A stretch of DNA of 10,160 nt from NCBI GenBank assembly GCA_030642225.1, contig DAOWOC010000015.1, positions 1-10,160 on the forward strand, given 5' to 3'. Shown here piece by piece: positions 1,972 through 10,160 of the stretch (its first letter is position 1; every line of letters begins with the position of its first letter). The stretch comes from Deltaproteobacteria bacterium. GTDB taxonomy: Bacteria > Desulfobacterota > DAOWOC01. The position numbers and the translations under genes were made by a program. The notes below the pieces were generated by a model. The model was given only the letters and a program-made list of their open reading frames with translations. It was not told the DNA's origin and made no database searches.

Positions 1972-3735
1972 TCACATAATATTTTCTTTTTGAAGAGACT
2001 GTTTTTTCAATAGAAGCTTCATTAATACACTTATATCATTTTGTGCTTCAGCCTCTTCTATGGCCATCTGCAATTTTTCAAGCGGCTCTTTTCTACCCTT
2101 CTTTTTTAAATAATTAAGCGTATCGGACAATATAAGTTGCCTGTACTCCGACGGTAATAAATTTTCTTCTATAATCAACCTTGAGACACAAGCCTTAAGA
2201 TTATCATCCTGTAGAGCTTCTACGCACTGTAAAAAAGAAAACCCGGTATCATCACTGTAATTATCAATTATCCAGTGAATAATTTTTCCATATCCTGTAT
2301 TGCTGATCTTATCAATAAGACCTGCTTCAATATATGTCTTGATTGTGGCAGGCTCCACAAGCATCATCCTTGCAATATATTCCTCCTCTCTTGTAAGGCA
2401 GGATGGAAGACTCGCATTTGTCTTGATATTATCATTTCTGTTGTAAGAAGATTTTATTGATTCCTTTAATATATGATACTGGATGCCGAGCCTGAATGCA
2501 GCCTTCTGCAAAAAGGTATCTTTTCTAACAGGATCAGTGATATATGTCAATAAGGGTTTTAATTCCTCAACACTTTTTAGCTTACCTTCCATGGACCGGC
2601 TGTTTTTTGAAATCAAATTTTCAAGGCAAAAGTCAAATATCAAAGGGGCGTTATCTATTATAATTTCAAGGGCATGATGTCCTTCTGATGATAGAAAACT
2701 GTCGGGATCATGTCCCTGAGGCAAGACAGCCACCCTTGACTCAAAAGATTCATTAATTAGTATGGGGGCGGTTCTGAAGGCAGCCTTTATCCCTGCTTCA
2801 TCTCCATCAAAAAGGATTACAAGGGTTTCAACCCTGCCTCTAAGCAATGGCAGATGAGCCTTTGTCAGGGCAGTACCAAGTGTTGCCACTGCACAATCAA
2901 TACCTGCAATGTTTAATGCGATAAGATCAAAATATCCCTCTGCAATAATTGCTTTTTTAACCTTATGAAAAACAGAAGATGCTTGTGGAAATCCATATAG
3001 CTGCCTTGATTTATTAAAAACAGGGGTCTGAGGGGAATTCAGATATTTAGGTTCCTGCCCGTCAAGTGAACGTCCTCCGAAACCTGTTACCTGATTATCT
3101 CTGTCAAGGATTGGGAAAATAATCCGTCCCCTGAAACGGTCATAATATCCGCCATCATTTCTTTGAACAATCAGGCCTGCATCTGATATCTCAGCTGTGG
3201 TATAGCCTTTCTTTTTCAAATATATTATAAGATTTTCCCATCCATCTGGGGCATATCCTATAAAAAATTTATCAATTATCTCAGAACCAAGCCCTCTTTT
3301 TTTAAGATACTCCAACCCTTTTTGTTTACCTGATTTTTGCAGCTGTTCCTGAAAATAAATCATAGCCTCATGATTGAGAGCAAAAAGCCTTTTTCTTTTG
3401 TTGGCCTGAAGAAACAAGGCGGGACTCATTTTTTTTTCAGGGAGTGTTACCCCTGCCTTTTTTGCTAACATTTCTAATGCTTCGGGGAAATTTATGGAAT
3501 GATAACGCATTAAAAATGAAAAGATATCGCCGCCTGTTCCACATCCGAAACAATAAAATATCTGTTTGGATATATTGACATTAAAAGACGGGGTTTTTTC
3601 CTGATGAAAAGGACAAAGGCCCTTTAAATTATTTGAGCCGTATTGTTTTAAAGGAATATATTCAGATATTACAGAGCCAATATTTATACGGGCACGGATA
3701 TCTTCAACAATATCTCTATCAAAGATTTGAGGCAT
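1972..3735 (-). CDS. dnaG: DNA primase DnaG
   Basis: Synthesises the RNA primers for leading-strand initiation and Okazaki fragments at the replication fork, working with the replicative helicase DnaB. 587 residues, normal length. The N-terminal CHC2 zinc domain shows C41-P-F-H44 and C62-F-G-C65. The RNA polymerase core has RFRGRIIFPI (200-209) and GFGGRSL, then the TOPRIM domain with catalytic E266 in AEGYFD (265-270), the D310-G-D312 pair in FDGDEAG, and GHDPDSFL (341-348). The C-terminal part (about 445-587), which in the family binds DnaB, is helical and weakly conserved. Start: ATG at 3735 has AGGG five bases upstream, and translation begins with the family-typical motif for a primase N-terminus (DIVEDIRARINIGSVISEY). 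It follows hisA after 78 AT-rich bases and precedes rpoD. Confidence 0.98.
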   Translation of the reverse strand: MPQIFDRDIVEDIRARINIGSVISEYIPLKQYGSNNLKGLCPFHQEKTPSFNVNISKQIFYCFGCGTGGDIFSFLMRYHSINFPEALEMLAKKAGVTLPEKKMSPALFLQANKRKRLFALNHEAMIYFQEQLQKSGKQKGLEYLKKRGLGSEIIDKFFIGYAPDGWENLIIYLKKKGYTTAEISDAGLIVQRNDGGYYDRFRGRIIFPILDRDNQVTGFGGRSLDGQEPKYLNSPQTPVFNKSRQLYGFPQASSVFHKVKKAIIAEGYFDLIALNIAGIDCAVATLGTALTKAHLPLLRGRVETLVILFDGDEAGIKAAFRTAPILINESFESRVAVLPQGHDPDSFLSSEGHHALEIIIDNAPLIFDFCLENLISKNSRSMEGKLKSVEELKPLLTYITDPVRKDTFLQKAAFRLGIQYHILKESIKSSYNRNDNIKTNASLPSCLTREEEYIARMMLVEPATIKTYIEAGLIDKISNTGYGKIIHWIIDNYSDDTGFSFLQCVEALQDDNLKACVSRLIIEENLLPSEYRQLILSDTLNYLKKKGRKEPLEKLQMAIEEAEAQNDISVLMKLLLKKQSLQKENIM

Positions 3736-3813
3736 AAAAACCCTGAGATTATAAAAACAAATTAATTAAAAAATAGTTAATGTATTAGTTAAGATTTTAA
3801 CCATTCAAACCAA

Positions 3814-4560
3814 TTATGGCAATGGGCTATCATGAAAATTTGATACAAAATCCAATGCCTGCTTTAAATCAAGGCTGCCTGTATATATGGCTCTGCCGGT
3901 TATTATGCCTTTAACGCCATGTTTTTCAAGGGGTAAAATATTTTTTATATCTTTCAGATCAGATACGCCGCCTGAAGCAATCACAGGGATATTAACAGCA
4001 TCGGCTATGTCCCGTGTCGCTGCTATATTAGGCCCTGTCTCAGCCCCATCCCTCTCAATATCCGTATATATAATACCGGCTGCGCCTTTGTTTTCCATTT
4101 TAAGAGCCATTTCAATTGCAGAGATATCAGTTATTTCTGTCCAGCCCTTTATCGCCACCATACCCTTTACCGCATCAATCCCAACCATGATTCTGCCGGG
4201 GAATCGTTCTGCTGCCTGTAAAACAAATCCAGGGTCTTTCACAGCTATTGTCCCCAGAATCACCCTGTTTATACCGAGTGCAAGATAATTTTCAATAGTC
4301 TGCATATCCCTGATCCCGCCACCAAGCTGTACAGGGATATCAATATCCGATATAATATTTCTTATAATTTTTGAGTTAACAGGGATACCATTAAAAGCGC
4401 CATCCAGATCAACAACATGCAATAATTTGGCGCCGATATCTCTCCATTTTCTGGCCATCAATAAAGGATTTTCATCAAAGACCGTAACCTTGTCGGCTTT
4501 ACCCTGAAAAAGCCTGACACATTGTCCATCCTTTATATCTATAGCAGGAATAATAAGCAT
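3814..4560 (-). CDS. hisA: Phosphoribosylformimino-5-aminoimidazole carboxamide ribotide isomerase HisA
   Basis: Catalyses the Amadori rearrangement of ProFAR to PRFAR, the fourth step of histidine synthesis. A 248-residue (beta/alpha)8 barrel of standard length. Visible marks: MLIIPAIDIKDGQCVRL with catalytic D8; HVVDLDGAF (48-56); phosphate-binding QLGGGIR (78-84); GIDA with the second catalytic Asp, D129; TDIERDGAETGPN (166-178); the C-terminal phosphate loop ASGGVSD (195-201) and GRAIYTG (222-228). The start is ATG at 4560, because HisA proteins begin directly with this first beta strand and a GGGAG site lies 11 bases upstream; a longer reading from 4599 adds 13 residues that fit no HisA. 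It starts one base after the apgM-like stop, so translational coupling is likely. No other histidine genes are in the window, so it is an isolated pathway gene here. Confidence 0.96.
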   Translation of the reverse strand: MLIIPAIDIKDGQCVRLFQGKADKVTVFDENPLLMARKWRDIGAKLLHVVDLDGAFNGIPVNSKIIRNIISDIDIPVQLGGGIRDMQTIENYLALGINRVILGTIAVKDPGFVLQAAERFPGRIMVGIDAVKGMVAIKGWTEITDISAIEMALKMENKGAAGIIYTDIERDGAETGPNIAATRDIADAVNIPVIASGGVSDLKDIKNILPLEKHGVKGIITGRAIYTGSLDLKQALDFVSNFHDSPLP

Positions 4561-8263: not shown

Positions 8264-8321
8264 GTCATTAACTCACTTTAAATAATAATTTTTTATAAAT
8301 ACCATAAGAACAGAACTATAT

Positions 8322-8351
8322 TTTATATAATAATAAATTACTGACTGTCAA
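8322..8351 (-). promoter_or_regulatory. Promoter of the aminotransferase-hom-hisA-dnaG-rpoD operon
   Basis: On the minus strand a consensus -35 box TTGACA (8351-8346) is followed after 18 bases by TATAAA (8327-8322), five of six matches to the -10 consensus. Transcription would start near 8315, giving a leader of about 50 bases before ATG 8263. It is the best sigma-70 promoter upstream of the operon, and its first ten bases, TTGACAGTCA, are identical to those of the tRNA promoter at 93-84. Confidence 0.7.
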
Positions 8352-8530
8352 AGGTTTAGCTGAAAGGAATCATGGTTAAGTGGAATAAATATGATGAAAA
8401 GGGGTCGGCCTGAATCAGGAAAATCTAAATTGTAAACTTTTTTTCAATTGAGGCGACAACTACCCTGACACATAGGGTTAATGTCGGATGACAGAAAGCG
8501 TGGAAAGGGGTTTCTACATCTGCGGCTTGA

Positions 8531-8726
8531 ATAATGATTTATTCGGAGATACGGCTGAATATATTTGTTTTAGCACGCTAATAACTGTTTTTGCAGACGA
8601 CGGTCGTTATCTAAGTTTCCACTGTACGTCGATAATCATTTTTGCGGATTTATGCCATAAAATAATTGTTTTAGTTGATATTGAGTTCAAATCTATCTAT
8701 ATTTATAGTGAAATAACAATTTTACG
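8531..8726 (+). repeat. Degenerate direct-repeat array of about 50-bp period upstream of fic
   Basis: Related 17-mers start at 8531, 8581 and 8632 (spacing 50 and 51), e.g. ATAACTGTTTTTGCAGA at 8581 and ATAATCATTTTTGCGGA at 8632. A second set starts 30 bp into the unit, at 8561 (ATATTTGTTTTAGC), 8662 (ATAATTGTTTTAGT) and weakly 8713 (ATAACAATTTTACG). Aligning 8531-8573 with 8632-8674 without gaps gives 32 of 43 identities. Consensus near ATAATTGTTTTTGCGGA. All spacings (30, 20, 51, 30, 51) are close to whole numbers of DNA helical turns, so the copies would lie on nearly one face of the helix. The array overlaps the fic promoter and ends at its ribosome site. Function unknown: an operator array or transposase-binding sites of an element end are both possible. 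Confidence 0.6.
8675..8703 (+). promoter_or_regulatory. Probable sigma-70 promoter of the fic gene
   Basis: TTGATA (8675-8680), 17-base spacer, TATATT (8698-8703): five of six matches in each box with ideal spacing. The predicted start near 8710 leaves a short leader of about 27 bases containing GAGG (8726-8729), seven bases before ATG 8737. The promoter lies inside the repeat array, so a protein bound to the repeats could control it. Confidence 0.6.
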
Positions 8727-8736
8727 AGGTCAGTCC

Positions 8737-10160
8737 ATGGAAATAAACGTTTTGGAGGTTCGCCCGGCTGGTTATGCTCACCTGTTAAAAAGGCTTGAGC
8801 TTACAGCTATACCCAATTGGCACATTTCTTCTGTGTCGGCAGCGGGTACTCATCACTCAAAGGTTCAGGATGGATCTATCGAAGAGGTCTTCCGAGCACA
8901 GTACTGGCCAGGAGATAAGGTCGGCGATCATCTCGAGTTTGCATTGAAATATGATGGCGTCAACATGAGCCTTTTGAATCTTATCTTCGGAGCTGTGCCC
9001 GAGACTGATATTGTCGACTATATAAAATCCAAGCCAACCGGGAAGTATGCCCGAAGAATCTGGTTCTTCTATGAGTTCCTGACTGAGAAACAGCTTCCCA
9101 TCGAGAATATCACTGCGGGAAACTATGTGGAAGCGCTGGAGCCAAAGGCATACTACACAATCACAGATGGTGAGAAATCCCAGCGGCACCGGGTTGTAAA
9201 TAATCTTCTTGGGCCAAAGGAATTCTGTCCGATCATCAGGAAAACGGACGAACTCAAAAAAATGGATTCCGCTGACTTACGAAAAAGATGTGAAGATATT
9301 GTCACGTCCTATCCGCCGGAACTGCTCCGCAGGGCGTTGAGTTACCTCTACAAAAAGGAGACGAAATCCTCTTTTGAAATAGAGCATATAAAACCCAACG
9401 CCTTACGCACTGAAAAGTTTATCGTCTCTCTGGAACTGGCTGAAAAAGAGGATTTCTGTGAAAAGGAGCTGTTGATCGACCTGCAAAACCGGATTGTCGA
9501 CCCACGCTTCAAAGACAGCGATTACCGGGCCACCCAAAATTATGTAGGCCAAACAGTATCCTATCAAAAAGAGGTTATTCATTTTATCTGTCCAAAGCCG
9601 GGAGATCTGTCAGACCTGATGAAGGGGCTTATTGTTGCACACAAGCGAATGAAAGACGGAAATGTGTCACCGGTGATTCATGCGGCGGCTATAGCCTATG
9701 GTTTTGTCTTCATGCATCCATTCGAGGATGGAAACGGCCACATTCATCGATTTTTGATACACAACATTCTCTCAATCCAGGGAATGGTGCCACGCGGATT
9801 GATGTTCCCCGTCTCAGCAGTGATGCTCAAAAAACCGGCTGACTACGATGCCTCTCTGGAAACTTTTTCCCGGTCGCTGTTACAGTTAATCGAATACAGG
9901 CTGGATGATGCTGGGCAAATGACGGTGGAAAACGATACGGCATGCTGGTATCAATACATGGATATGACGGCACAAGCGGAAGCTCTGTATGATTTTGTGC
10001 GCAAGACCATAGAAGAGGAACTTGTCGAAGAGCTCAGTTTCCTTGTCAACTATGACAATACCAAAAGGGCGATTCAGGACATCATTGATATGCCTGACCG
10101 CCTGATTGATTTGTTTATCCAGCTTTGCCTTCAGAACAACGGCAGCCTTTCTGCCAGAAA
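8737..10160 (+). CDS. Large Fic-family protein (probable AMP-transferase), 3' end outside window
   Basis: Open for 474 codons to the window end. Fic enzymes transfer a nucleoside-monophosphate, usually AMP from ATP, to a hydroxyl of a target protein. The Fic motif is HPFEDGNGHIHR at 327-338, with catalytic H327, metal-binding D331, the GNG anion nest, and R338; the ninth position, normally Arg, is His335. Upstream, SSFEIEH (211-217) resembles the (S/T)xxxE(G/N) inhibitory helix, with E216 positioned to pair with R338. Its location before the Fic core is that of class II, self-inhibited Fic proteins. A flap-like segment YRATQNYVGQ...IHFICPKPGDLSDLMKGL (263-298) fits the target-docking hairpin. 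Residues 1-200 are an N-terminal region with a helical patch YARRIWFFYEFLTEKQLP (104-121) seen in other large Fic proteins as I recall; its function is unknown. The start is well set by GAGG seven bases upstream. No antitoxin-like gene precedes it. GC is visibly higher than in the neighbouring operon, suggesting acquisition by transfer. Confidence 0.93.
   Translation, partial: MEINVLEVRPAGYAHLLKRLELTAIPNWHISSVSAAGTHHSKVQDGSIEEVFRAQYWPGDKVGDHLEFALKYDGVNMSLLNLIFGAVPETDIVDYIKSKPTGKYARRIWFFYEFLTEKQLPIENITAGNYVEALEPKAYYTITDGEKSQRHRVVNNLLGPKEFCPIIRKTDELKKMDSADLRKRCEDIVTSYPPELLRRALSYLYKKETKSSFEIEHIKPNALRTEKFIVSLELAEKEDFCEKELLIDLQNRIVDPRFKDSDYRATQNYVGQTVSYQKEVIHFICPKPGDLSDLMKGLIVAHKRMKDGNVSPVIHAAAIAYGFVFMHPFEDGNGHIHRFLIHNILSIQGMVPRGLMFPVSAVMLKKPADYDASLETFSRSLLQLIEYRLDDAGQMTVENDTACWYQYMDMTAQAEALYDFVRKTIEEELVEELSFLVNYDNTKRAIQDIIDMPDRLIDLFIQLCLQNNGSLSAR

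Follow-up and report, generated by a model that had tools for sequence, protein, structure and literature searches.

We investigated an array of short direct repeats that precedes a fic gene in a 10,160-nucleotide stretch of a Desulfobacterota draft genome (contig DAOWOC010000015.1; hereafter, the window). Comparative evidence makes it likely that this array is the operator of fic, read most probably by the PDC-S24-type Fic protein itself, which would repress its own gene. Fic is proposed as the binder because the array travels together with this Fic and because one of its residues, residue 55, covaries with the array motif.

Array and promoter in the window

We found that the array comprises seven genuine copies of a 15-bp motif, all in direct orientation, in which the core TAAYNRTTTT is followed by a variable 5-bp right half. 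The steps from copy to copy are, in order, 30, 20, 51, 30, 31, and 20 bp. The repeat unit consists of three copies spaced 30 and then 20 bp apart; this triplet occurs twice (cores at 8532/8562/8582 and 8663/8694/8714), and a single copy (core at 8633) stands outside both triplets. The original prediction had described six copies in a direct-repeat unit of about 50 bp; it overlooked the copy on the −10 box (core 8694-8703), and the triplet replaces its unit. The features of the region are as follows.

8532..8546 (core 8532-8541), + strand: array copy U1 (shuffle test, copy calling)
8562..8576 (core 8562-8571), + strand: array copy U2 (repeat search, copy calling)
8582..8596 (core 8582-8591), + strand: array copy U3 (repeat search, copy calling)
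8633..8647 (core 8633-8642), + strand: array copy D0 (repeat search, copy calling)
8663..8677 (core 8663-8672), + strand: array copy D1, overlapping the −35 box (repeat search, promoter scan, copy calling)
8675..8703, + strand: likely fic promoter, TTGATA-17-TATATT (consensus scan and 45-locus alignment)
8694..8708 (core 8694-8703), + strand: array copy D2, holding the −10 box (promoter scan, copy calling)
8714..8728 (core 8714-8723), + strand: array copy D3, reaching into the ribosome-binding site GAGG at 8726-8729 (copy calling)
8737..10158, + strand: fic, PDC-S24-type, 474 codons, truncated by the contig end (open reading frame, domain and family profiles)

The likeness of 32 in 43 positions reported earlier for the first and third units was reproduced: 8531-8573 and 8632-8674 are 74% identical across 43 nt without a gap, and none of 500 dinucleotide-preserving shuffles matched this pair, either for the region 8264-8739 or for 8480-8739. 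The sites at 8581, 8632, and 8662 form one 17-mer family, and the number of sites with at least 12 of 17 matches to one 17-mer was likewise equaled by none of the 500 shuffles of either region. Equally good repeats in shuffled DNA, which the original prediction had named as evidence against itself, were thus absent for both the 43-nt pair and the 17-mer family. A 30-nt pair was matched in 0.8% (8264-8739) and 0.2% (8480-8739) of such shuffles, and the best lone 17-mer pair (14/17) was ordinary, being equaled in 12% and 3.6% of them. Tandem Repeats Finder reported nothing at the array, as the copies are too degenerate for that program. U1 to U3 form the distal 30/20 triplet, where a model built from the proximal block also matches (8528-8599, E 3.9e-4).

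The proximal triplet lies over both promoter boxes (−35 and −10) and the ribosome-binding site of fic. The promoter-like site at 8675-8703 spans copies five and six, and the last copy runs into GAGG, upstream of the ATG at 8737. The consensus scan for promoters is weak alone (3 sites vs 2.3 in shuffles); an alignment of 45 loci gave the consensus TTGACA-17-TATATT under D1 and D2, with the ribosome-binding site after D3. The copies on the promoter and the ribosome-binding site keep their register with the start codon. Two other accounts of the region were rejected: a longer reading frame from 8488 across the array is open for at least 80 codons in just 1 of 78 other loci, and an RNA element found no support in a scan of the window against Rfam, which returned no match.

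The draft genome of the window is 66% complete in 375 contigs and holds one copy of this Fic. The 17-mer consensus with up to three mismatches occurred there at 17 sites (three of them in the array), compared with 19 for the reversed control; therefore, the second array that the original prediction had suggested seeking elsewhere in the genome is not visible in this 66%-complete draft. A DNA similarity search with 8264-8760 found nothing among plasmid and phage records, and comparison of the upstream DNA with 59 genomes, its own included, returned one 41-bp match and short weak ones besides itself. The 41-bp match pairs positions 8361-8400 with contig C18 of the same genome (about 40 bp at 93%), beside an unrelated gene, and is a short dispersed repeat. 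Additionally, the stretch 8490-8521, just 5' of the array, is similar to DNA found ahead of the array in L058, L061, L070, L094, L135, and L136, where GTAGAAAG repeats occur together with a GTAGAAAGGTCTTTCTAC palindrome.

Array in close relatives

Two homologues from the same phylum, 64% and 61% identical, are each preceded by their own version of the array. A scan of genome contigs, from which 80 of 178 confirmed stretches were kept, together with four loci from viral contigs and the window itself, gave 85 loci, near duplicates among them being L135/L136 and L087-L089, and L111 being the contig of L015. By record title, the carriers include Desulfobacterota, Spirochaetes, Acidobacteria, Chlorobi, Riflebacteria, Dadabacteria, Gammaproteobacteria, and others; many of these records are metagenome-assembled genomes, so binning errors are possible.

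Among the 79 loci with at least 300 bp upstream, the core (up to one mismatch) occurred 4.8 times per 300 bp; the corresponding rates were 0.63 for shuffled DNA, 0.56 for the opposite strand, and 0.11 within the gene. Distances between cores were 20 bp 82 times, 30 bp 111 times, 50 bp 82 times, and 51 bp 22 times, with at most 0.3 for each in shuffles. At least one complete 30/20 triplet was called in 74 of the 85 loci and two triplets in 31, which are lenient counts because the copy finder used those spacings. The original prediction held that the same array before other fic homologues would point to an operator, and this was found, with the distances in the 79 loci lying far above shuffles. 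Up to nine copies occur per locus, and a distal triplet plus an extra copy is common. The distance between triplets clusters at 96–97, 131, and 139 bp; the helical phasing originally proposed for the whole array therefore stands within the triplet and not between triplets. Seven of the 85 loci have no called copy, including L081, whose contig starts at fic, and two loci have two copies.

Two side observations concern individual loci. In L111 and L120, a GC-rich hairpin-like insert (CCTGCCTGCC...GGCAGG) shortly ahead of the fic start separates the final copy of the motif from the ribosome-binding site. In L017 (genome G032), a decayed fic copy, only the last third of Fic is left, beside the upstream GTAGAAAGGTCTTT stretch and one motif copy.

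Spacing in distant homologues and other Fic families

We also applied a motif-free test that asks which of 676 spacing pairs yields the best triplet; the close loci and the other-family genes entered it with at least 260 bp upstream. In the 79 close loci, (30,20) ranked first of 676, and 71 loci had it in the top 1%. In 17 plasmid homologues with 28–42% identity, (30,20) again ranked first (Z sum 47.1; next pair, 28.5), with a shuffle p of 0.01 or less in 10 of the 17, 0.043 in one, and no significance in six. In these distant homologues the motif differs and the 30/20 spacing stays; between subfamilies, too, the motif changes at constant spacing. Conversely, upstream of 24 Fic genes of other families (one of 25 loci was left out), the same pair ranked 375th (Z −0.7) and reached the top 1% before no single gene. 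The reading of the array as an operator of the fic promoter, one of the two offered by the original prediction, gains support to this extent: the array precedes fic homologues, and its spacing precedes distant ones but not the 24 other-family Fic genes.

Family identity of the Fic protein

The window's Fic scored 572.5 bits over residues 9-474 with the PADLOC profile PDC-S24, a candidate defence family with a predicted anti-phage role. The Fic of L058 scored 609.4 bits with PDC-S24 vs 77 with SoFic, and 7 of the 17 distant homologues, scanned in the same way, scored 564–607 bits with PDC-S24; in all nine proteins scanned, this profile was the best match and nearly full-length. The name PDC-S24 appeared in no paper of the literature searched. 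A search of phage records with the L058 Fic gave no match.

The Fic domain PF02661 was detected in the window's frame at 42.7 bits (cut-off, 24) and in 83 of 83 family members at E values up to 1. The signature motif of Fic AMP-transferases is HxFx(D/E)GNGRxxR, which the family as a whole shows. The window's Fic lacks the full motif and reads HPFEDGNGHIHR: in the corresponding stretch, HPFEDGNGHIHRF (9715-9753), it has H where 82 of 83 aligned members have R. Judging from this substitution, the window's copy may be less active or impaired, or the draft assembly may differ from the genome. Class II Fic proteins carry an inhibitory helix before the Fic core, with the motif (S/T)xxxE(G/N). In the corresponding region of this family, TKSSFEIEHI is commonest (56/83) and TKSSFEIENI, with N for H, occurs in 8/83; the last position is usually H.

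Covariation between Fic and the motif

The right halves of the motif are more alike within a locus than expected (2.60 of 5 positions vs 1.98 when permuted; maximum, 2.10), whereas the variable left positions are not (1.67 of 4 vs 1.62; maximum, 1.71). Among 62 loci with at least four copies, the Fic column most strongly linked to the right half was residue 55, which immediately precedes YWPGD (r 0.383; rank 1 of 305). No column reached this value when arrays were permuted among relatives only (500 permutations for each of four settings, with 16, 5, 2, and 1 clusters). Loci with K or R at residue 55 have more C at motif position 12; among loci with at least three copies, this held in 8 of 9 independent pairs, and the ninth was a tie. 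Of 314 splits tested, this one ranked first, with an uncorrected sign p of 0.0078. The residue-55 rule was fixed in writing before it was tried on 12 distant homologues, of which 8 fit K/R with C (p 0.27), and the part of the rule that pairs Q with G fit none of three. The link of residue 55 with the motif is thus strong among close relatives and unproven outside them. The motif-linked columns lie mostly outside the C-terminal part of Fic, where a winged helix would be expected by analogy with SoFic, and this counts against Fic as the reader.

Proposed mechanism and alternatives

We propose that several Fic proteins bind next to one another along roughly one side of the helix and that bound Fic would keep RNA polymerase, and perhaps ribosomes, off the fic gene. 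Such repression would keep the amount of this potentially toxic AMP-transferase low. The distal triplet may aid by cooperative binding, looping, or storage, and repression may be relieved by a trigger of which phage infection is one possible example.

Of the other explanations, we give most weight to an operator read by another protein, either a host factor or a regulator encoded elsewhere, which we nevertheless regard as unlikely. It could accommodate the residue-55 rule going unconfirmed out of sample, in the distant homologues, and it would account for distal triplets kept without a family Fic nearby (L159 and L160), G164 having none at all. These cases emerged when the sequence-only model of the proximal block was run on 297 genomes of the phylum and 30 matched loci were examined: this Fic follows in 14 (of which the window and G065 had contributed to the model, and others may have), a Fic of another family follows the triplet in one (L162), and no Fic follows in 15. 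At E values of 1e-7 or below there were 16 loci, namely the 14 that lead into this Fic plus L159 and L160; the other 13 Fic-less matches (E 2.7e-5 to 7e-3), of which L163 and L164 were inspected as lists of open reading frames, are probably chance. L159 and L160 count about once, because they are nearly alike. In both, a distal triplet stands alone in a mobile element whose cargo differs, and no family Fic occurs in the L160 genome, which is rated 100% complete. Most simply, these triplets are leftovers of a lost fic, yet they count against a strict tie to fic. Against another reader, the motif drifts with the Fic subfamily, the array precedes fic in many phyla, and no other gene is common to the loci: each neighbouring gene family is present in 7 of the 85 at most, antisense frames in fic excepted.

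A second and rather improbable reading takes the array as a store in addition to an operator, in which DNA would serve as the antitoxin. Seven or more Fic molecules would be held inactive on the array, and a phage that degrades or takes over host DNA would release them, whereupon Fic would stop the cell. Fic would then be an enzyme that reads DNA, recognizing the right half of each site through its N-terminal domain around residue 55, and the distal triplet, situated over 100 bp 5' of the promoter triplet and kept in many loci, would serve storage.

The original prediction had also considered a TniA/TnsB-type transposon end with fic as cargo. The ends of Tn7- and Tn5053-like transposons carry several spaced, degenerate direct repeats, a layout that the fic array shares, but neither a second end nor a transposase was found with it among the 85 loci. 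In the 85 loci (526,748 bases), no core pairs at 20 or 30 bp were found downstream of fic on either strand, and the only two isolated core pairs elsewhere lie 1.7 and 2.5 kb upstream; this search for a facing array covered flanks of up to 3 kb in most loci, and a strongly diverged array would escape it. No recombinase or transposase gene recurs among the neighbour families. With no facing array and no widely shared neighbour gene, the transposon-end reading is unsupported. The broader idea that the array is the end of a mobile element, made of transposase or recombinase sites, draws on mobile settings of fic (the viral contigs L135 and L136, and an element shared with L091, L159, and L160) and on a tyrosine recombinase gene that adjoins the array in L016; we consider it very unlikely, as the copies lie on the promoter and the ribosome-binding site, in register with the start codon. 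The L016 gene (genome G071, 3200-4084, − strand; Pfam Phage_integrase, E 3.8e-26) is directly 5' of the array.

Iterons at the replication origin of a satellite or plasmid are still less probable. Spaced direct repeats do occur near a primase-like gene in L135 and L091, but in these elements a distinct set of 9-bp repeats is located upstream of the array, and most carriers have no replication gene in common. Short GTAGAAAG repeats lie between the array and a divergent gene of 256–257 codons in L135 (2370-2800) and L091 (2360-2770), as do short TGCGGTGG repeats in L159 and L160 (near 1200-1500 and 1580-1950); by their appearance in the sequence, both look like iterons of an integrative element. 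In the elements that keep a lone distal triplet, the site beside it (L159 485-1081, L160 2038-2663) is occupied by other conflict genes, namely an AbiLii-like gene and a gene pair that we take to be Phd/ParE, and is a possible defence hotspot. Finally, chance or a by-product of AT-rich promoter DNA would fit the degenerate copies and the ordinary lone 17-mer pair but is contradicted by the shuffles, the other loci, the distant homologues, and the other-family Fic control, and its probability is negligible.

Comparison with known systems

An operator read by Fic itself has its nearest precedent in CccR of Yersinia pseudotuberculosis, a Fic toxin and autorepressor that binds and represses its own promoter (PMC9755527). 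Both CccR and the window's Fic are encoded by stand-alone genes, and the self-repression described for CccR is what we infer here. There are also differences: CccR protects one 46-nt stretch with two inverted repeats and is a secreted effector (PMC9755527), whereas the fic array consists of direct repeats at 30/20 spacing, and no sign of secretion was noticed for this family. A palindromic operator of the CccR type is not what we found, as the copies are direct repeats; a repeat search of 8300-8950 returned one inverted pair, 316 nt apart, unrelated to the layout of the copies.

AbiEi and Rv2827c are antitoxins that autoregulate through several 23-bp inverted repeats (PMC7319586). The reader of those sites is an antitoxin distinct from the toxin, and its winged helix is N-terminal (PMC7319586); for Fic, self-reading is proposed. 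Sofic and the window's family are alike in being Fic defence candidates, but the control described in the accessible sections of PMC12249575 is a small antitoxin protein and not a DNA operator. Cloning of Sofic from E. coli needed three lac operators according to the same sections (PMC12249575), so tight control may matter.

A direct-repeat 30/20 operator for a Fic family was described nowhere in the literature searched, a corpus with most subscription papers and preprints outside its scope. Since the spacing persists from phylum to phylum as the motif drifts, the loci form a natural series of matched protein and DNA partners suited to direct tests of a recognition rule. In addition, the 30/20 layout could serve as a promoter signature in searches for members of a candidate defence family, and the array bears on how cells restrain a toxic single-gene defence enzyme until it is needed. 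Self-repressing toxins are already known; what the family studied here adds to them is the direct-repeat 30/20 layout of its candidate operator.
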